From assembly GCA_018401705.1 (NCBI GenBank), contig JAGYKL010000025.1, positions 1-49,484 of the forward strand: a DNA stretch of 49,484 bases, written 5' to 3'. Positions 11,011 to 26,312 of this stretch are shown here, piece after piece (positions within the stretch are counted from its first letter, which is position 1; each line of letters begins with the position of its first letter). The notes beneath the pieces were generated by a model. The model had not been told where the DNA came from and did not search any database. It saw nothing but the letters and a program-made list of their open reading frames with translations. The stretch comes from Bacteroidia bacterium. GTDB lineage: Bacteria > Bacteroidota > Bacteroidia > M30B66. The translations under genes were made by a program, and so were the position numbers.

Positions 11011-12003
11011 ATGAAATTCTTTACCTTGTTTTTACTCTTGGGGCTATTGAGTCTGAATGGTTTTTCTCAAACATCCTATACTTGGACGGGCTCAACCAAT
11101 ACCGATTGGGCAACTTCTTCCAACTGGTCACCTGCGGGGGTTCCTTCAACCGGCGATGCTGTAAGCATTGCAAGTTTGACCAATCAGCCTGTCTTAGATG
11201 GCAATAGAACAGTTGCTTCGCTCACTTTATCAAGCAGTTCAACCTTAGACCTAAACACTTACACCTTAACGGTAAGCGGCACAGGTTCTTTTGCCTCTTG
11301 CAGTGTTTCAAACGGAGAAGTTATAACAGGCTCGTTCAATGCAAGTTCTTCAACATTTTCGGCAGACGTAAGTGCTTCAGGTTCATCCATCATTACAACA
11401 TCAAGTACCTATCAAGGAGAAGTTTCATTGAACTATACAGGTTCAGCAAATGTAAATTCGGGAGGTAATACTTTTGAGGGCGTTTGCCATATTACCCAAT
11501 CAGGTTCGGGATTATTCGTTTTTGGTCAAACCAACCCCGACGTGTTTGAAGACAGTCTTTTTGCAGTTTCCAATGGCAGCAAGACACTCGTTTTTGGAAC
11601 ATCTTCAACTGGAAATCGCTTTGAGGGATATACTTTATTTCAGAGAGGAGCTTCAGCTACTTCATCAGGTATTCAAGTTGGTAACTACGGCTCTACAACA
11701 AGCCTGCTAAATCAAGTTAAACTATCATCCAGCAACTACGCAGCAGGCTCATTCTCTACTAGTGCGATTGATTTTAGGGATTGCCTTTTTGATTCCACTT
11801 CTTCTTTAAGTATTGATACCAGCGGTTTTGCTTTAGGCCAAATTAGTTTCCTAAATACTACAGTTTTTAATCCTACAAATTTAACCTTAAGTGGCAGTTC
11901 CTCTTTCTATCTTTCGGCAGGGGCAACTTTTGAAGATAGTCTGAGTCTTTCGGCTTCAAATATGACAATCAATAATTGTACATTGAAGGACTGGAGTCAT
12001 TAA
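11011..12003 (+). CDS. N-terminal fragment of a giant T9SS-type surface protein
   Basis: 330 residues: signal peptide (MKFFTLFLLLGLLSLNGFSQ), then a TYTWTGSTNTDW / SSNWSPAGVPSTGDAV opening that is shared by many Bacteroidota adhesin-like proteins (the T9SS protein at 31492 has TWTGASNSSF / ENWQPSGVP at the same place). Ser/Thr/Gly-rich repeats of a beta-helix-like character follow. The frame ends at a TAA at 12001-12003 in the middle of the domain. The sense of the protein continues directly in the next frame (LKAVNQSTGT), so this is not the natural end. It is the first piece of a gene running to 18017. Confidence 0.75.
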   Translation: MKFFTLFLLLGLLSLNGFSQTSYTWTGSTNTDWATSSNWSPAGVPSTGDAVSIASLTNQPVLDGNRTVASLTLSSSSTLDLNTYTLTVSGTGSFASCSVSNGEVITGSFNASSSTFSADVSASGSSIITTSSTYQGEVSLNYTGSANVNSGGNTFEGVCHITQSGSGLFVFGQTNPDVFEDSLFAVSNGSKTLVFGTSSTGNRFEGYTLFQRGASATSSGIQVGNYGSTTSLLNQVKLSSSNYAAGSFSTSAIDFRDCLFDSTSSLSIDTSGFALGQISFLNTTVFNPTNLTLSGSSSFYLSAGATFEDSLSLSASNMTINNCTLKDWSH

Positions 12004-13595: not shown

Positions 13596-16500
13596 TTGAT
13601 AGTCTCAGTAACAAACTCAGATAATTGTGTTGGCGTAGATTCATTAACTATCATTATGGACCTATATAATTCAACTATTCTTAATGAATATTTATCTCAA
13701 TTTAACTTTGCACATGATATATTTTCAAAAGAAAACGTAATTTCAAATAACACGGATACTGTTTTTATTTTTGGAGAAGCCTTAATGCCAGAGTTATTAT
13801 TTGCAGATATAAATGCAGTTGATACAATTATTAGCGACACAGCTCAAATTCTAAGCTTTAACAACCATCTAGAAATAATTGACAACTATGTTTTGGAAAA
13901 CATAGGCTATCTCAAGTTATATAATGATACGATTAGGATTAATGGAGGCGTGTATTCATATATTCAAGATACTACTCAAAATATTTCGATAGTTTCAAAT
14001 GCTTCAATAGATGATCATAGTATTATTTACTTTCAAGGAGTTGAACAACTCGACTCAACTTTTACATTTTTGAACCAGAATTCTTTTATTGATTCAACAA
14101 CTATTTTGATCTTCAATGATAGGGTTCAAATTAAAGATGGATTTCGATTTACAGGAACTATTATTGCCGACACGATAGAATTTGCAAATTCTGTTCCTCA
14201 ACAATATAGTTTTAAGAGTTACTCTAAACAAGTTCATAAGTTTTCTAATACTGACAACCTTTATATTAGATCTGCAGCAAGGATACTGCTTCAATCAACT
14301 TGCCCAAATTATAATGATACAATTTGTTCAAGAGTTCCTAATGGAATTAGGTTTGATGTGAATAACCAATACCCTCAGGCAGGGACAATTGACCCTTTCA
14401 CGTCAGGATTTGTATGTGGCTGGTCGAGATTTGGACCCAATACGCCTACTTTAGGCGGCGCTGTGACTGCTATTTCCGATAACTCTGCAGAAATGTGGGC
14501 ACTAGATAATGGAAATAGTGAAGGAATAATGACGAACCAGCCATTAAACTTGGTTTCTGGTACAACTTTTCGCATTTCGTTTGATCATAGAATTATAGAA
14601 AATACAATAAACGGATTAAACAACCTACCAAGATATTTCGTAATTTTATCTACAGTTGCAAACCCACCATCATCAGGTTTAGTATTCAATTGGGGGGCAC
14701 AAACATTCACAAGATTACCATTCAATTCAACAAATTATATTTCAGTTCCAATCAATGGCACTCAGGATCTTTTCGTTTATAACAATAATGAACAATATTT
14801 AGTCATATCTCAATCCGACAACAATATTGCCAATTCACCAACTCAGCAAGACCTTTCAGGCATAAATAGCCCATTGGAAAGTTGGAATACATTTTCCAGA
14901 ACTTTTACTATACCGAGTGTGATAAATGGGATCAACACGAATACATTTAATACATTAATTTTAACTCCGAAAAGACAATTCGGTGGTTTAGCAACAACTG
15001 CAACGTACACACAAATTGATAATGTGGAGATTAATGGTTGCTGCCCTTCAACGCTGGAACTTCGTGATGATATTACAACAATTGAAGACTTAGACAACCC
15101 AGATTTAACTTTAGGTTCAGATGTATACTTTTCCATAGTAGGAGGTGTAAATACGATAAATACTGGACTTACATCCATAACTAACCCAGGCCCATATCTA
15201 CATTTTAATGGAGACCTTATAGTTGATGATGATTTAACAATTGATCATGCTCATTTAGTACTTGATGATAATTCAAGAATTAGAGTACTTAGCGGTTCTA
15301 CGCTGACTATTTCAGATTCTTGGATACATGGATGTAGAGTCCTTTGGGAAGATATTCGGGTTGAAGACGGTGGCACATTAATTATGAACGATGTTACTGT
15401 TCAAGATGCAAATATTGCCATTCAAGGTATTGAAAACTTTGCTAGTCCAAATCCAGCTTCAATAGAAATCTACGATTCTGAACTCGTGTCAAATAGAATC
15501 CATATTAACTTAAGTGGGAATGGTCAAACCGGTGTTGATTGGCCTTTAGTCCTTTCCGGTAATAATTTTAGTTGCCCACAAATGCTGCTCCCGATAAGCT
15601 ATTCTAGTTGGTTATCTACTGGTTCAAATACAAATGCATTCACAAATTATTGCATCAATTTACGTGGAGTGGGAAGAGTTGTACCGATTGGTGTATTCGG
15701 TGGTAGTTCCAGCCAGTTGAATAAATTTCAAGAAGCGTATAACGGGGTGAGAGCTCAAGCCTCAAGTTGTCGAATAGACAATAATCTTTTCATTAATATT
15801 AATCCTACATTTTGGCCAAATTCACCTCAAGTGCCGAATCAATTTAATGGGGGCAATGCTCCGGGAGCTATCGTGAGTTTTGGACATAACGGGGTTGGAA
15901 ACGGGAATGCTGATATATTAATTGATATAGGAGCTAATAGTGATTTTGCCCAAATTTCTACGGGAAACACAATAACAGATTGTAGATACGGTCTATTTAC
16001 AACTAGGGTTATTAACAGGCTTTGGATGGAAAGAACAACATTTGAGAATATTGGAGGTGTTGCAATTTCTGCGTTAAATCATAATGCTTCAGAACTAGTT
16101 TTTTCGAAAAATACTTTAGAGGAAGTAGGTCAATTTGGCTTTGAGTTCAGAGAACTTTATAACTCAAGAATTACAGTGCTCAGTAATTTGATTGACAATA
16201 CAAATCTAACTAATGATGTTTTTCCAGCAACCGGAATAGCCGCTAGCAACACTTTACAGCCGCTAAATAATTCATTTTTTGAATTTTCGGATAATGAATT
16301 AGTTAATTTTAGATTTGGTTTCGATATTAATAACGTTGGGAGAATATCTAATGCTAGCATTGCCAATCTTTTGCCAGTATTCACATCAAATATTTTTAGT
16401 TTATTTTACAATAATACCGTGCGAGTCAGAATTGGAAGTTTAGGTCAGCAATCATTCGGTTTTCGGCTGCAAAACTGTCCAAGAACGACAATGGTGGAGA

Positions 16501-19054: not shown

Positions 19055-20145
19055 GACTGTTTTTTGTTTTGTTAATCGCACATCTTAGCTTTTTTAATAG
19101 TTTATCTCAGATAAACTTGTTGCCTAATGGTGGTTTTGAGGAATTGTCAGAATGTCCGACCTCATTTCAAATGATCCAGAACCCTGGAATTGAATTGGCT
19201 AATACTTGGTGGAATTGTACTAATCTAGATTCAACGTACACCAGCACATCAGATATATTTAATACTTGTTTTGATTCTTCTTTAATGCTGAATGCAAGAT
19301 TATATTTCATTGGAAATACAACGCCTTATGAAGAGAATGGTTTTGCTGGCTTTTCCTTATATGTAGAACCAACAAGTTTACCAAATCTTGTTAGTTTTGG
19401 TGAGTATCTATCGTGTGAGCTAAATAGTGGAATATTACCTTCAAGAACTTACTTACTTAGCTTTCATATTACGCTTTCAGAAGTCATTGCAAATCATAAT
19501 TTAAAGAATCTAAGAGTAGCATTTCATAGTGATTCAATTATATCACCGGGAGTTATTACGTTTCAAAATGATGTTAATTCTGCCTTCCCCGATTATCAAG
19601 ATTATGATGTATTTGAAATAACAGGTTTAGATAGTGTGCCTTATGATCAATGGATTAAAGTAGAAACTCTCATTAATCCAACGAAAACGTCAAGTCATAT
19701 GGCCATCGGTGCATTTAAGTCTAACCAATTAATCTTCGAAGATGATGAAATTGTGTATTCTCATGATATCATTTTCCCTCCGCTTACAGCACAAAGTGTT
19801 TACTATCTAATTGACAACATATCCTTAACTGAGATTGCTGATACAACGAGCATAGGAGATATTAATAATGCGAATATTACAATTTACCCTAACCCTGTGA
19901 TAAATCATTTAAATATAAACAATAAAACCATTAAGGGCAGTTTCCAGATCGCCATATCAGATGCCACCGGCCGCCTCATCCAAAACGAGCAATTCTCAGG
20001 CATAGGCACACATACGTTAAACTTAAGCGGTTTAGCCAAGGGCATTTATTATTGTCGTGTTATGCAGGGTGAGGAAGTTGTTGTGGTTGAGAAGGTGGTT
20101 GTGACCTCTCCCCTGCCTGCAGCAGGCAGGGGGAGAGGTCGATGA
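19051..20145 (+). CDS. T9SS type A cargo protein, tandem paralogue 2 with extended tail
   Basis: 364 residues with the same plan as the preceding gene: signal peptide (to SLSQ), INLLPNGGFEELSECPTS, a WWNC segment, ITGLDSVPYDQWIKVE, then a T9SS domain starting IYPNPVINHLNI. The sorting domain is of a different subtype from its two upstream neighbours (ISDATGRLIQNEQF; GLAKGIYYCRVM) and its DNA from about 19925 is richer in GC, suggesting a swapped module. After VVVVEKVVV the frame runs through a palindromic repeat that adds TSPLPAAGRGRGR, so the natural C-terminus has been lengthened. Overlaps the upstream gene by ATGA. Confidence 0.75.
   Translation: MRLFFVLLIAHLSFFNSLSQINLLPNGGFEELSECPTSFQMIQNPGIELANTWWNCTNLDSTYTSTSDIFNTCFDSSLMLNARLYFIGNTTPYEENGFAGFSLYVEPTSLPNLVSFGEYLSCELNSGILPSRTYLLSFHITLSEVIANHNLKNLRVAFHSDSIISPGVITFQNDVNSAFPDYQDYDVFEITGLDSVPYDQWIKVETLINPTKTSSHMAIGAFKSNQLIFEDDEIVYSHDIIFPPLTAQSVYYLIDNISLTEIADTTSIGDINNANITIYPNPVINHLNINNKTIKGSFQIAISDATGRLIQNEQFSGIGTHTLNLSGLAKGIYYCRVMQGEEVVVVEKVVVTSPLPAAGRGRGR
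20103..20140. repeat. 38-bp imperfect palindrome inserted at the 3' end of a T9SS gene
   Basis: Arms GACCTCTCCCC-TGCCTGC and their complement, with one bulged G, around a 2-nt centre. It is translated as TSPLPAAGRGRG before the stop. No T run follows in a suitable position, so it is a poor intrinsic terminator; it looks like a dispersed palindromic repeat of the kind that produces SPLPxxGxG tails in Bacteroidota proteins. Confidence 0.65.
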
Positions 20146-20275
20146 AGCCAGAATTATAACCAATCAAACTCTAAGATCTAATAACTTATTCGCAAGCGAA
20201 ACCCTTTAAAAATTTCACTATTACCTAATTCAAGTTCCTTAAATCTTTGAAGATACAGTATAGGCATTGTTTTCC

Positions 20276-21025
20276 TCAACTAAACACATACTCTCCACTT
20301 CCACCGACCAAAAATTTCAGTTCTTTTTTATCCGCCTGAAAGGCATCATAGCCCTTTTTAAGATTTTCCCAAAATTGAATTAATGCTTTATCATGCTTGA
20401 ATTTCTCTTTATGAGCAAGCATGTTTTGAGCTGTCATTTTAAAAGGAAACACGTAAACCGGAATGTTATTTTGACCATTGTTTTTGGCATGAACGGCATA
20501 CATGTAAATCTCCTTGATTTTATCATCGGTCATGGGCAAACATCCAATGGTAACGCAGTTGCCATGAATAAAAATATCGCCCCCTAAGTTCCCAGCGCCA
20601 CTGCGCTTCTTGTCGGCTGCGTTAGGATAGTTCAAGCCCAGAGAAAGATAATAACTACTCGAAGGATTAAATCGGTTGATGTGGTAAAAGCCTTCAGGAA
20701 CCTGCGCATCACCTTGCCTACTCTTAGGTCCTAAGCTTCCTGATTTTGAGCAAATGGCATACGTTTTAAGTTTGCCGTATGCCTTTTCATTCTTGCCTTT
20801 CACATAAAGTTCGAGTTCATCACTTTCCTTGTAAGCGATAAGCATCATTTGAAAGTCGATAAGCTTCAAACCTTTGGTTTTCAGGGCTGCTTCAATTGTC
20901 TGCTTTTTTTCTTTCGATGCGGTTCTAACGCGTTGAAACCTAAGCTGACTACTAAGGAAATCGCTCTGAAAAGAGTATAAAACAAGTACTAAAACAGGTA
21001 GCAATAGCCAAAGCCATTTATTCAT
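20276..21025 (-). CDS. YafK-like L,D-transpeptidase family protein
   Basis: 249 residues. An N-terminal hydrophobic segment (residues 4-18) is a signal or anchor. The YkuD-type catalytic domain covers about residues 60-205: ELELYVKGKN, CSKSGSLGPKSRQGDAQVPEG, then the active site HGNCVTIGCLPM with the catalytic Cys in GCLPM and the conserved His of IHG. The spacing and the MTDDKIKEIY follow-on match the YafK (DpaA) subgroup, whose E. coli member cuts the peptidoglycan-Braun lipoprotein link. A substrate here is not known since Braun lipoprotein is not typical of Bacteroidota. Acts in the periplasm. Confidence 0.85.
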   Translation of the reverse strand: MNKWLWLLLPVLVLVLYSFQSDFLSSQLRFQRVRTASKEKKQTIEAALKTKGLKLIDFQMMLIAYKESDELELYVKGKNEKAYGKLKTYAICSKSGSLGPKSRQGDAQVPEGFYHINRFNPSSSYYLSLGLNYPNAADKKRSGAGNLGGDIFIHGNCVTIGCLPMTDDKIKEIYMYAVHAKNNGQNNIPVYVFPFKMTAQNMLAHKEKFKHDKALIQFWENLKKGYDAFQADKKELKFLVGGSGEYVFS

Positions 21026-21092
21026 TTTTCTTGTTTTTCAGATAACTCATAAGTTTGACTTAACGCATCAGCTTGACGAAAATTCTCTAATC

Positions 21093-21131
21093 GTAAAATA
21101 AAAAGCGCATTTCCCTTTTGGAAAATGCGCT
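21093..21131 (-). terminator. intrinsic terminator of efp
   Basis: On the minus strand a stem AGCGCATTT / AAATGCGCT, ending 23 nt after the efp stop, is followed by a T-rich run (TTTTTATTTTA). Confidence 0.8.
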
Positions 21132-21153
21132 AGATTAAAAGAATTATTCTGGA

Positions 21154-21714
21154 TTATTTCACACGCTCCATGTATTCACCTGTGCGGGTGTCTACTTTGA
21201 TTTTCTCACCAATATTGATAAACAGAGGAATATTTACTGTTGCACCTGTTTCTACAGTTGCAGGTTTTAATGTCTTTGTGGCGGTATCTCCCTTAACACC
21301 CGGTTCGGTGTAAGTAACCTCAAGTTCAACTGTTTTTGGTGCTTCAGCGTAAATAACGCTATCGCCTTCAAAAGCAACATTTACTTCTGAATTCTCAGTC
21401 ATAAATTTAACACCATCACCAAACAGGTTCTCTTCAATATAAATTTGCTCAAACGTGTCATTATCCATACAAACCAAACTTTCGCCTTCACGATAAAGGT
21501 ATTGTAATGGGCGCATCTCAACGCGAACAACTTCAATGCTCTCTCCTGAGCGAAAACGATTTTCAGCCAATTTGCCGTTAGAAACATTCCTCATTTTAGC
21601 TTGATAAAATGCTCTAAGATTACCTGGTGTACGATGCTGCCACTCGATAATTAAACAAAGTTCACCATTGTAGCGAATAAAAGTTCCAACGTTTACGTCC
21701 TGTGTAGTTGCCAT
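21154..21714 (-). CDS. efp: elongation factor P
   Basis: 186 residues, normal length. EF-P relieves ribosome stalling at proline stretches by entering the E site and reaching the peptidyl-tRNA. All three beta-barrel domains are present: KOW-like domain I (about 1-65), OB domain II (about 67-128) and domain III with the signature VELEVTYTEPGVKGDTATK and a conserved end PLFINIGEKIKVDTRTG-YMERVK. The tip loop of domain I reads HRTPGNLRAF: the position corresponding to the beta-lysylated Lys34 of E. coli (PGKGQ) is Asn32 and the usual Gly-x-Gly is altered. A minus-strand TATATTTG lies 19 nt upstream and a strong terminator follows. Confidence 0.95.
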   Translation of the reverse strand: MATTQDVNVGTFIRYNGELCLIIEWQHRTPGNLRAFYQAKMRNVSNGKLAENRFRSGESIEVVRVEMRPLQYLYREGESLVCMDNDTFEQIYIEENLFGDGVKFMTENSEVNVAFEGDSVIYAEAPKTVELEVTYTEPGVKGDTATKTLKPATVETGATVNIPLFINIGEKIKVDTRTGEYMERVK

Positions 21715-21732
21715 ATTAATTTAATAAAGGCG

Positions 21733-21740
21733 CAAATATA
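21733..21740 (-). promoter_or_regulatory. candidate -7 box of efp
   Basis: TATATTTG on the minus strand, exact match to TAnnTTTG, 18 nt upstream of the efp ATG. No clear -33 TTG at the standard spacing. Confidence 0.4.
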
Positions 21741-21777
21741 ATAAAAAGAGGTTCAGATTTTTCGACTTATCAGCGAC

Positions 21778-22710
21778 TTAGAACCACTTCCTGCGCATGA
21801 AGATTATAAGTATTGCCATACTTAATGTAAGTGAGATTGCCATAATCCAGGTAAATGCAGAGCCCGAATCCTGTCCAGGTATTTGCACATTCATCCCAAA
21901 GAAACTGGCTATCAGGGTTGGCACATACAACACAATGGTTATCAAAGTAAGGGTTTTGATAATCTTATTCATGTTGTTATTAATGATACTGGCATAAGCC
22001 GAAGTCATTTGAAGCAAGATGTTATTGGCAATATTTGTCATCTCGATGGCCTGCTGAAATTCAGTTACTACATCTTGAAAAAGCTCTTCGTCTTCTTCAT
22101 AAGTGCGTAAAAGTTGCAGTCTATTCAAGCGAGCCATCATGAGCTCGTTAGATTTCAAGGCTGTTGTATAGTAAATGAGGACCTTCTGATACTTCAGCAA
22201 ATCGAAGATGTCTTGGTTCTTCATGCTCGACTGCAGGTCATCTTCAATCTGATCTACTGTTTTATTGATTTCCCTCAGATGCGCGAGGAATTTTGTAGCT
22301 GTTTTAAGAAGTATGAGCAACAAAAACCGGTAATGCTTGCTGGTATTGAGGTTTTTAACCCTATTATTCTCAAATTCCTGTACGATGATATTGTCTTCTT
22401 TGGTGATGGTCATGAAGTAATCATCGTTCTGCAAAACACCTAAAGGAATGGTAATAAAAGGAGCTTCATCTTTTTTACCTCTAAAATGAGGAATTTTGAT
22501 AAGAGTAAAAAGCACATCTTCATCTCTCTCTGCGCGGGCCTTCTCATCAATATCGAGGGGGTCCATGAGGTACTCTTCAGAAAAAGGAAATTCCTTAATC
22601 AGCCAGGCAAGCTCTTCATCGCTGGGGTCTACAACATTAATCCAACAGCCGGGTTCCGGCTTCTGAATTTCCTCCAGCCTGCGATTTTCTGTTTTGAAGA
22701 TCGTGATCAT
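21778..22710 (-). CDS. corA: CorA-family divalent metal ion channel
   Basis: 310 residues. An N-terminal cytoplasmic alpha/beta domain (CWINVVDPSDEELAWL; DPLDIDEKARAERDEDVLF) is followed by a long helical stalk and two C-terminal membrane helices (about 250-270 and 285-305). Between them is the signature GMN in SFFGMNVQIPG, which forms the ion selectivity mouth in CorA pentamers. The C-terminus ends in the basic RRKWF. The family imports Mg2+ and sometimes Co2+/Ni2+. The gene stands alone between efp and a repeat island. The residue after GMN differs from the classic YGMNF but is common among CorA-like transporters. Confidence 0.9.
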   Translation of the reverse strand: MITIFKTENRRLEEIQKPEPGCWINVVDPSDEELAWLIKEFPFSEEYLMDPLDIDEKARAERDEDVLFTLIKIPHFRGKKDEAPFITIPLGVLQNDDYFMTITKEDNIIVQEFENNRVKNLNTSKHYRFLLLILLKTATKFLAHLREINKTVDQIEDDLQSSMKNQDIFDLLKYQKVLIYYTTALKSNELMMARLNRLQLLRTYEEDEELFQDVVTEFQQAIEMTNIANNILLQMTSAYASIINNNMNKIIKTLTLITIVLYVPTLIASFFGMNVQIPGQDSGSAFTWIMAISLTLSMAILIIFMRRKWF

Positions 22711-22814
22711 CGTTCATGGCTTGGCGTAATGCCGGTTTTTTGGGTTCGTGGCGAAAATACGGTTTTTATTTTACAAGGGAGGAAGTAGAAAGGAAAAAGG
22801 AGAATGATTGAAAA

Positions 22815-23131
22815 TCGTACATCGTATTACGTACATCGTAATACGTACATCGTAATACGTACATCGTAATACGTACAACGTACAACGAAAGTCGTAAATC
22901 GTACAACGTAGAACGAAAACCGTACAACTTAACAATTACATCGTAAATCGAATATCGTAATACGTATATCGTACAACGAAAGTCGTAAATCGTATATCGT
23001 AATACGTATATCGTACAAAGTACAACGAAAGTCTTAAATCGTACAACGTAGAACGTACAACGAAAACCGTACAACTTAACAATTACATCGTAAATCGAAT
23101 ATCGTAATACGTATATCGTAATACGATTTAC
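22815..23131. repeat. array of CGTA/TACG-type units with a nested ~95-bp duplication
   Basis: About 320 bases made almost wholly of variants of a 14-nt unit such as ATCGTAATACGTAC, plus ACAACGTA and AAATCGTA variants. The first four units are nearly perfect tandem copies; the rest is degenerate. A stretch at about 22881-22970 (ACAACGAAAGTCGTAAATCG through TACGTATATCGTA) recurs at about 23021-23118 with few changes. Because CGTA/TACG is self-complementary, the array could form many hairpins. An open frame across it on the minus strand is a product of the repeat and not a gene. It is not a CRISPR: there are no unique spacers. Confidence 0.8.
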
Positions 23132-23246
23132 GCAGAAGACGAAAAGGCTAAATCAGATTATGAAAAGGTGAAATAGAACCTAATTATTTGACTATCAACA
23201 ACCAACCATCTGACTTCTGACTATAACTATCAACTAGCCGAACTTA

Positions 23247-23486
23247 AACGTTTAAAAACGGCTCATGTCGTTTGAATGCTTTAAATTGTTCCCGGGCAGG
23301 GGCAATTGGGCTTGTCCCTCAGCATTTTCCGGCATCTTGTCAAGCCAATAATTCCAAAATCTATTTCATTTTATCAACCCTGCTGTTTAAAACCCAAGCT
23401 GCAATGAAGCTATTCGTTTCAAACAACTATAAATGTTTAAAAATGACTTAGGTCAATCCAAACATCTAAATTGTTCCCGGGCAGGG
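23247..23486. repeat. diverged direct repeat in the intergenic island
   Basis: A unit at 23247-23301 (CGTTTAAAAACG ... CTTTAAATTGTTCCCGGGCAGG) is echoed at 23431-23486 (TGTTTAAAAATG ... CATCTAAATTGTTCCCGGGC). Between and after them lie AT-rich bases without a gene. With the array at 22815-23131 they make up the 1.1-kb gap 22711-23836, in which I find no supported coding or RNA gene. Confidence 0.5.
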
Positions 23487-23836
23487 TGCTACGACAAGCT
23501 CAGCGCCCGCAAGCTCAACATCCTTTAGAAATCTCAATGCTATGCAGGATGAAGCCGTTTCTAAATCTTTTAGTTTGTAAACTTGCAAATCAATTCTTCA
23601 AGTCTAGTATTAGTTTGTCGAGTAAAGTCCTGCTGAGTTTGTCGAGTTAAGTCCTTGTCAAGTCAAATATTCCAAATCTGGCTTAAAGTTTTTAACCTGC
23701 TTGATGATAAAGCAAAAGATTATAATCTAAAAGCAAAACAGAATCTTAAAATGATATTCTCAGAAACTTCAAATTTTAATTTAAATACTAATCGGGAACA
23801 CTCTTCCCTTTCAACTTCCCACTTTTCCCTTCCCCC

Positions 23837-24604
23837 TTACTCCATTCTCCTTCCTCTCACTACCTCATAAACTACCAAAGCAGTAGCTACCGAAACGTTT
23901 AATGATTCAGTATTGCCCGTCATCGGGATTCTCACTTTTATATCGGCTTTTTTCAGGTACTCGGGACTAATACCATCTTCTTCTGAGCCCATTAATATTG
24001 CAACAGGACCGGTAATTTTTTGATCAAACAAACCTGACTCTGTTTTTTCGGTGCAGGCCACAATCTTCAATCCCGAGTTTTTTAGATAATCAAGCGTGTC
24101 TTTTAAATTGCTGCTTCTACAAACAGGTAAATACATCAAGGCTCCGGCCGAAGTTTTTAAAGCATCAGAACCTATTCTTGCGCTGCCGCGAGATGGAACA
24201 ATAACAGCATCAACCCCGGCACATTCAGCAGTGCGACAAATAGCCCCGAAATTTCTAACATCAGTAACTCTGTCTAGAATCAGCAAAAATGGGTCACGGC
24301 CTTCTTCATACACTCGCTGCAAAACTTCCTCTAATGGAGAAAATGCAACTGGCGACATCATCCCGATTATTCCTTGATGATTGGCACGTGTGACTCTGTC
24401 GAGCTTTTCTTTAGGTACTACCTGAGAAGGCACTTCCATATCACTCAACAATTGCCTTAACTCGTTCATTTGAGGAGATCTCAATCCTGATTGAATCAAA
24501 ACCTTATCAACATCCGCCCCACTCCGCAATGCTTCCAAAACAGGAAAAATTCCAAAAATGATATCCTGTTCTTCCTTTTTTCTTGGTTTGTGGTTGTAAT
24601 GCAT
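23837..24604 (-). CDS. rlmB: 23S rRNA 2'-O-ribose methyltransferase RlmB-like (TrmH/SpoU family)
   Basis: 255 residues from the ATG at 24604; the frame extends to an upstream start at 24643, but its 13 extra residues are not typical and a TTnnTTTGC promoter-like stretch lies within them. An N-terminal RNA-binding substrate domain (IFGIFPVLEALRSGADVDKV; NHQGIIGMMSP) precedes the SpoU knot domain: motif 1 LDRVTDVRNFGAICRTAECA, motif 2 VAILMGSEEDGISP, motif 3 IPMTGNTESLNVSVATALVV. This order and the NFGA Asn/Arg and Glu-Ser-Leu-Asn residues are those of enzymes that methylate G2251 (E. coli numbering) with SAM. A TrmH-type tRNA target is less likely because of the N-terminal domain. Confidence 0.9.
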   Translation of the reverse strand: MHYNHKPRKKEEQDIIFGIFPVLEALRSGADVDKVLIQSGLRSPQMNELRQLLSDMEVPSQVVPKEKLDRVTRANHQGIIGMMSPVAFSPLEEVLQRVYEEGRDPFLLILDRVTDVRNFGAICRTAECAGVDAVIVPSRGSARIGSDALKTSAGALMYLPVCRSSNLKDTLDYLKNSGLKIVACTEKTESGLFDQKITGPVAILMGSEEDGISPEYLKKADIKVRIPMTGNTESLNVSVATALVVYEVVRGRRME

Positions 24605-24698
24605 CGCGTGTACTTTTTGCAAAGAACGAAAAAATCGAAGCAATAGCTTCAGCTCCTTTCCTTACTATGATCTTGTATAAACATCCGCCGAAAGGCGA

Positions 24699-25664
24699 TT
24701 AATAAAAATACTTTTTCTCTAAGTAATTCGTGACATAGTCTTTAACTCCTTCTTCGAGTGAAAAAAACTCATCATTGTAACCCCAAGATCGCAATTTTGA
24801 CATGTCAGCCTCAGTAAAATATTGATACTTGTCTCTGATATCAAGAGGTGTATCGATAAATCGGATGTCATTTTGCTTACCTAAAGCCGAAAATGTAGCT
24901 GAAGCTAAATCATAAAACGTTCTTGCCCGACCGGTGCCGAGATTAATTAACCCTGAATGATTTCTATGATGCATCAACCAAGCGCAGATTTTCACAATGT
25001 CCATTACATATATAAAGTCGCGTTGCTGTCCACCGTCTTCAACACCTTCTTTATGCGAGCGGAATAAATTCACAAAACCTCTATCCTGAATCTGATTAAA
25101 AGCATGCATGATAACCGATGCCATTCTACCTTTATGCAGCTCATTTGGACCATAAACATTGAAGAACTTTAAACCGGCCCAAAACCATGGAGCTCTTTCC
25201 TGAGCCAAAGCCCATTTGTCGAAATCGTTCTTAGAATCACCGTAAGGATTAAGAGGCTTGAGTTTGTCAACTACTTCGTGACTATCAGAATAACCATGCT
25301 CTCCTAAGCCATAAGTCGCAGCTGATGAAGCATAAACAAGCGGTAAACCATACTTAACGCAGGCATTCCAAACAGCTTTTGAGTAATTCAGATTAAGCTC
25401 ATCAAATATCTCGGTGTTAAATTCAGTAGTATCAGTTCTTGCGCCCAGGTGAAAAACAAATTGCACAAGATTCTCATTTTCATCAAGCCATTGCAGGAAA
25501 TCGTTGCGATGCACTTTCTCTTTGAAAATTTTATCTTCCAGATTCGGCCATTTATCTTCATGCGAAAAGTCGTCAACCAGAACCAAATCCTTATAATTGA
25601 GTTTATTTAGATGCGAAACAAGGCAAGAGGCAATGAAACCTGCAGCTCCGGTAATAACAATCAT
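24699..25664 (-). CDS. hldD: ADP-L-glycero-D-manno-heptose 6-epimerase
   Basis: 321 residues from the ATG at 25664 (the frame extends to a TTG at 25694). Extended SDR with the NAD(P)-binding TGAAGFIAS loop at the N-terminus, DDFSHEDKWPNLED, the conserved HLGARTDTT, catalytic SSAATYG Ser/Ala region with Y-x3-K in PYGDSK, and FFNVYGPNELHKGRMASV, all characteristic of HldD (RfaD). It epimerises ADP-D-glycero-D-manno-heptose at C6 to give the heptose donor for the lipopolysaccharide inner core. No other heptose gene is in the window. A minus-strand TATCTTTG at 25682-25689 may be its -7 box. Confidence 0.93.
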   Translation of the reverse strand: MIVITGAAGFIASCLVSHLNKLNYKDLVLVDDFSHEDKWPNLEDKIFKEKVHRNDFLQWLDENENLVQFVFHLGARTDTTEFNTEIFDELNLNYSKAVWNACVKYGLPLVYASSAATYGLGEHGYSDSHEVVDKLKPLNPYGDSKNDFDKWALAQERAPWFWAGLKFFNVYGPNELHKGRMASVIMHAFNQIQDRGFVNLFRSHKEGVEDGGQQRDFIYVMDIVKICAWLMHHRNHSGLINLGTGRARTFYDLASATFSALGKQNDIRFIDTPLDIRDKYQYFTEADMSKLRSWGYNDEFFSLEEGVKDYVTNYLEKKYFY

Positions 25665-25681
25665 GATTACTAATTTTTTGG

Positions 25682-25689
25682 CAAAGATA
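25682..25689 (-). promoter_or_regulatory. candidate -7 box of hldD
   Basis: TATCTTTG on the minus strand fits TAnnTTTG, 17 nt from the hldD ATG. It also lies inside the upstream TTG-initiated extension, supporting the ATG start. Confidence 0.4.
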
Positions 25690-25739
25690 GGCAATGCCGC
25701 CTCCCTTGAAGCGTTGAGATTTTAATTGATTTTTGAAGC

Positions 25740-26312
25740 ATGATTCGAATCTTAAGTCTTTTACCCATTTTTATGCTAGGTTTTATAAGCATATCGCCTG
25801 TAAAACAGGCGGATGGGAACTTGATTCATTCAAAAATAGATACTTTGTTTTGGACTGAGGGCATAAAGTTAAGCCGGTCCGATTTCTTTGGCAAAGAGCC
25901 CAGGAGAAGTCCATACGCTGGATATTCCTATACCATCATCTTGATGGATTACGAAGTTGAGTCCTTCGACAGAAGAAACATCAAACCTGTATTTAAAATT
26001 CGCTCAGCATTTAACAGAGCTAAATCGTGGATTTCAGAGTCATCAAAATCAAACCCCGACAGAGTATTGATGCATGAACAATTGCATTTTGACATATCAG
26101 AATTAACATCAAGAAAGCTTAAAGCCCGTTTAGAGAAGAAGCGTTTCACTGAAAATTTCAGAAGAGAAATCCGTGAGATTTACGATTCAGAAATCGCCAA
26201 AGGAGAAGAAATGCAGGAGAGATATGATGAGGAAACCCGACACGGATTATCAAAAGAAAGACAGAAAGCATGGGAAATAAAAATCCAAGCTTTGCTTGAA
26301 GAGGAGTCTTAA
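25740..26312 (+). CDS. DUF922-like secreted putative metalloprotease
   Basis: 190 residues with an N-terminal signal peptide (hydrophobic 3-20). The central part has WTEGIKLSRSDFFG, AGYSYTIILMDYEV and then MHEQLHFDISELTSRKLKA: the HEQxHFD motif matches DUF922, a family suggested to be Zn-dependent proteases on the basis of its HExxH-like site. In canonical HExxH the His pair is four apart (HEQLH), present here with a following Asp. The C-terminal 60 residues are strongly charged and helical. It converges on hipA with only 3 nt between stops. Function and activity are unproven. Confidence 0.75.
   Translation: MIRILSLLPIFMLGFISISPVKQADGNLIHSKIDTLFWTEGIKLSRSDFFGKEPRRSPYAGYSYTIILMDYEVESFDRRNIKPVFKIRSAFNRAKSWISESSKSNPDRVLMHEQLHFDISELTSRKLKARLEKKRFTENFRREIREIYDSEIAKGEEMQERYDEETRHGLSKERQKAWEIKIQALLEEES

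Follow-up and report, generated by a model that had tools for sequence, protein, structure and literature searches.

Between the corA and rlmB genes of a Bacteroidia bacterium lies a long array of CGTA-containing repeats, and the locus raises the question of what such an array is: a structured RNA, a site for a nucleoid protein or for recombination, or a selfish low-complexity expansion, the three roles proposed in an earlier note on this DNA. We analysed the array in its window (the whole stretch of 49,484 nt), in the genome that contains it (G000; 3.74 Mb in 95 contigs) and in related and more distant genomes. The array is probably one locus of a dispersed, degenerate, minisatellite-like family of heptanucleotide repeats that changes by 7-nt slippage and block duplication, with no dedicated function needed; among the three proposed roles, the selfish expansion fits best.

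The corA-rlmB array and its unit

Based on Pfam matches to CorA and SpoU_methylase, the array is correctly placed between corA and rlmB, in a gap of 1126 bp. Given the minus-strand orientation of both genes, the array is 5' of corA and follows the rlmB stop at a distance of about 700 bp. The putative promoter element of corA is located between this gene and the array, so the array would be upstream of that promoter as well. The features of the region are as follows.

21778..22710, minus strand: corA, Mg2+ transporter family (Pfam PF01544, CorA, E = 9e-55)
22752..22759, minus strand: putative -7-like promoter element of corA, TATTTTCG, proposed by comparison with TATTTTTG / TACTTTTG 5' of corA in relatives
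22816..23132, plus strand: CGTAHWW heptamer array, complete, 45 units (TRF, repeat finder, heptamer parse)
22816..22831, no strand: left end of the array, a 15/16 inverted match to the right end (end comparison; not seen in most other arrays)
22816..22882, plus strand: most regular part, alternating CGTACAT / CGTAATA (sequence, heptamer parse)
22876..22973, plus strand: copy A of an internal block duplication (pairwise alignment)
23016..23120, plus strand: copy B of the duplication, with one extra 7-nt unit, CGTACAA (pairwise alignment)
23117..23132, no strand: right end of the array, inverted match to the left end, where the units turn over to CGATTTACG (end comparison)
23763..23869, minus strand: second, weaker period-7 tract, pyrimidine-rich on the plus strand, of CCCTTTT/CACTTTC type (lag-7 identity, multi-lag scan)
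23837..24643, minus strand: rlmB-like SpoU rRNA 2'-O-methyltransferase (Pfam PF00588, SpoU_methylase; PF08032)

That the array is a real repeat is evident from its lag-7 identity of 0.616, where shuffles give 0.284 +/- 0.025 (z = 13), and from the pattern CGTANNNCGTANNNCGTA, which matches 15 times in the array and on average 0.00 times in shuffles of the window. Its unit had been taken as 14 nt. Such a 14-mer is present, as CGTACAT followed by CGTAATA in the most regular part, but the true unit is 7 nt, because identity is raised at all four lags (0.62, 0.69, 0.61 and 0.72 at lags 7, 14, 21 and 28) and all 45 units can be read as head-to-tail heptamers, with no off-period indels. The units follow the pattern C-G-[T/a/c]-A-[C/A/T]-[A/T]-[T/A], with the consensus CGTAHWW, and run in tandem in constant phase, as in a heptanucleotide SSR. 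The heptamers are continuous, and the lack of unique spacers between them sets the array apart from CRISPR, as had been recognised. On the minus strand, a frame is open for 102 aa (22766-23074); its YDVR.TIYVLR pattern is a translation of the repeat, and automatic annotation could call a gene here.

The internal duplication that had been reported at 22881-22970 and 23021-23118 is likewise real, and its limits were right to within a few bases. The alignment of copies A and B shows two substitutions within the block, a mismatch at its edge and a single insertion, exactly 7 nt long. This difference of one whole heptamer is direct evidence for a block duplication followed by the gain or loss of a single unit, the unit-wise length change of an SSR.

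A structured RNA or terminator, for which the array would have to be transcribed and fold, is highly improbable as an explanation. Compared with shuffles, the minus strand has a somewhat better fold (z = -2.11), which is no more than expected from nested repeats of a partly self-complementary unit; the plus strand gives z = -0.56, and no Rfam match was found within positions 20000-26000. Hairpins could arise in some other genomes, where inverted arrays come in pairs. At the corA-rlmB locus, however, no terminator-like site was found, and the distance from the rlmB stop and the position upstream of the putative corA promoter speak against a terminator, as does the occurrence of arrays between tandem, convergent and divergent genes alike.

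Arrays of the same unit in the genome

Approximately 14 CGTAHWW arrays were found in G000, every one of them intergenic. A search of the genome gave 83 matches of the three-unit pattern CGTANNNCGTANNNCGTA at these loci and none of a reversed-pattern control, and one consensus unit at many intergenic loci is also a character of an SSR family. Outside the arrays, no excess of CGTA-7-CGTA was found in 280 kb together with the remainder of the window.

Across the 301 units of these arrays, the first four positions are C in 92%, G in 91%, T in 74% (A 18, C 7) and A in 91%, followed by C/A/T, A/T and A/T. The information content is 1.46-1.53 bits at core positions 1, 2 and 4 and 0.33-0.76 bits at the last three positions, values that are biased toward core conservation by the use of the CGTA core to locate the arrays. 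The arrays have a vocabulary of heptamers in common, with CGTACAT in 12 of 14 loci and CGTACAA and CGTATTA each in 9 of 14. The longest strings common to pairs of arrays are no longer than those given by unit-shuffled arrays (p < 0.05 in 2 of 66 pairs), indicating that the order of the heptamers is set locally.

The genes flanking the arrays, called as longest ORFs, are mixed, mostly encoding housekeeping or secreted proteins, and neither a functional theme nor a transposase domain was found among them; type IX secretion tails among the genes place the genome in Bacteroidota. The neighbouring genes are arranged in tandem at nine arrays, convergently at three and divergently at two, and several arrays start 5-17 bp from a gene end.

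It is possible, if unlikely, that CG.A at every 7 bp is a recognition site for a regulator, a nucleoid protein or a protein that organises the chromosome, and that selection keeps the core and its spacing. The roughly 91% conservation of positions 1, 2 and 4 would suit such a protein, as would degenerate CGTA-cored arrays in unrelated Bacteroidota (G108, G112 and G066) and two arrays that lie just upstream of a putative promoter. The same conservation, beside three variable last positions, weighs against slippage in that it could mean constraint rather than a founder effect, and plain slippage also leaves the common CG.A core at every locus and the seeding of new loci unaccounted for. However, neighbouring genes and orientation are without pattern, which argues against a bound protein, as do the array-free collinear loci of relatives, the failure to find a four-unit array in the congener G001 (only 73% complete) and the drift of the core itself, in phase, to other heptamers. 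A recombination site is likewise possible, with the conserved core on one side and the mixed gene context and the array-free collinear relatives on the other.

This drift was noticed by eye in three arrays, which run in phase into a different heptamer. CGTAATA changes to CTTAATA in array C12a, TACGTTG changes to TACTTTC and CCCTTTT/CACTTTC in C3a, and CGTATTA changes to CGCACTA and then to ACTTAAT/ACTAAAT in C2a. Hence the period outlasts the sequence. That there are only three such transitions, found by eye, counts against resting the slippage reading on them.

Counterparts in relatives and other genomes

Relatives were compared with G000 at two collinear loci, using one genome per species and taking gap sizes as distances between BLAST-matched blocks. 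Fructose-bisphosphate aldolase and phosphoglucose isomerase (PGI) adjoin in G002, G003, G004, G006, G007 and G008 as they do in G000, and none of these aldolase-PGI gaps holds a CGTA array. The distance is 145 bp in G002 versus 407 bp in G000, and the corresponding values are 124 versus 444 bp for G003, 276 versus 519 bp for G004, 267 versus 510 bp for G008 and 401 versus 660 bp for G006. Between nitronate monooxygenase and serine hydroxymethyltransferase, the distance is 67 bp in G003 versus 258 bp in G000, where the array stands between two divergent promoter-like elements that are both kept; the same gap in G002 is longer, with other sequence. The array-free gaps of the family members examined at both loci indicate that the arrays are lineage-specific, and these empty sites are too diverged for target-site duplications to be read. 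The corA-rlmB junction is kept in no relative examined, so the window locus stands without an empty-site comparison, a further point against slippage there.

Four of five genomes of the sister genus carry CGTA arrays. The genus also has many degenerate AGT[A/C]NNN (AGTM) arrays (G004, G006, G007 and G008), which resemble CGTAHWW in their degenerate 7-nt units, short fixed core and many loci per genome, but have the core AGT[A/C] instead of CGTA and lie partly inside dispersed repeats. Of the 296 genomes in the phylum sample, 22 have five-unit CGTA arrays and about 12 match a control pattern read backwards; arrays of heptamers are thus not peculiar to CGTA. The absence of similar arrays from the rest of the phylum, which the earlier note had named as part of an argument for a neutral expansion, is not what was found: they are present in the same genome, in the sister genus and, sporadically, in other genomes. 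CGTA heptamer arrays are also present in named genomes of many phyla, mostly as uniform repeats, with degenerate ones in some Bacteroidota and Chloroflexota, and 27 viral contigs have a five-unit match; the scan of named genomes gives no pointer to a source.

In the sister genus, CGTA heptamers are also found mid-way in a dispersed repeat, roughly 150 bp long, whose flanks are conserved and which has 43 matches in G007 and 19 in G006. The copies at L065 and L066 of G007 and at L061 of G006 look like a MITE-type element. By analogy, the arrays of G000 might derive from a MITE- or REP-like element moving from one intergenic site to another, as degraded copies of it or as its middle part, and the inverted ends of the corA-rlmB array would agree with this. 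We consider it quite unlikely, as the 150-bp repeat has no match in G000, the array flanks are unrelated except for those of the neighbours C3b/C3c and a single heptamer tract in common, and the array-flanking genes carry no transposase domain. Of the 11 arrays tested, just two have inverted ends at p < 0.05 (the corA-rlmB array and C6a, with C8 at p = 0.05), and such ends are thus not a feature of the whole family; the recurrence from site to site of one element with inverted ends and common borders, the mark of a MITE or REP element, is not seen here.

A broader proposal is that in these Bacteroidota intergenic DNA is added in 7-nt steps by a dedicated process, under which the period and a short core persist and the other positions drift. 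One activity, such as that of a template-switching polymerase or of a protein counting 7 bp, would then have produced the CGTA, AGTM and CCCTTTT-type arrays alike, but we hold this to be very unlikely.

The reading of the array as one locus of a slipping repeat family can be set out in a few steps. Short multi-unit seeds would land in intergenic DNA, and the arrays would then grow and shrink by replication slippage in 7-nt steps and by the duplication of longer blocks. Point mutations would create unit variants that may themselves be amplified. The arrays would be tolerated because their position in gaps spares promoters and genes, with no need for a dedicated cellular function.

Known heptamer repeats and neighbouring repeat types

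Heptamer repeats are over-represented among bacteria, and the reason for a length of seven is unsettled (PMC4692102, PMC4679880). The CGTAHWW family is a new sequence type of this known but poorly understood kind of bacterial repeat. Its closest parallels include the heterogeneous heptameric repeats (GGGANTN)n of Xanthomonas and GGGGA(C/T)T of Nostoc (PMC4692102), in which a 7-nt unit likewise combines a conserved core with variable positions. Those repeats, too, have many loci per genome, are mostly intergenic, often near one neighbouring gene, occur on both strands and differ in length between relatives. The CGTAHWW family differs from them in that it has about 14 loci rather than about 186 and changes in phase to other heptamers. 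It is also not G-rich and therefore cannot form G-quadruplexes; the G-run that each unit of a G-quadruplex heptamer repeat would carry is absent.

The direct repeats of the heptamer TAACTGA in Beggiatoaceae, Cyanobacteria and some Bacteroidetes (PMC4679880) are also intergenic tandem arrays, the gaps of relatives being shorter and repeat-free and other heptamers occurring in the same gaps. In contrast to CGTAHWW, they consist of one fixed heptamer, usually in few copies just before start codons. The degenerate CGTAHWW unit is a different one and has no fixed position relative to start codons, and the two repeats are not identical.

The tandem heptanucleotide repeats of the cyanobacterium Calothrix are named STRR. 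As far as they are described where they are cited (PMC4692102), they resemble CGTAHWW in being tandem heptanucleotides of unknown function and differ in unit and phylum.

What the CGTAHWW family adds is that a single genome shows a common vocabulary without a common order, the gain or loss of one unit, and a period that survives a change of sequence. It separates the growth step, slippage of seven, from the seeding step, and offers loci with clear absent states in relatives at which both could be measured.

Further repeats were observed in the corA-rlmB gap and beside the arrays. The second period-7 tract of the gap has a lag-7 identity of 0.52 over 100 bp, above the threshold of the multi-lag scan, and resembles the tract adjoining array C3a (L052, around 4545). 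The gap also contains a 62-bp direct repeat, 77% identical, at 23241-23301 and 23425-23486, with TTGTTCCCGGGCAGGG near its end; this motif did not occur in the other sampled stretches of the same genome. ACTTAAT/ACTAAAT arrays, which read AGTATTW on the opposite strand, stand beside or near CGTA arrays at L050 (1190-1290), L294 and L295, and are common to two genera of the family. At L052, related repeats at 11372-11450 and 14151-14230, made of ATGAGYCCCC and GCTTGCCGAATGGG-like units, come after two CGTA arrays that stand on either side of one gene for a secreted FG-GAP protein.
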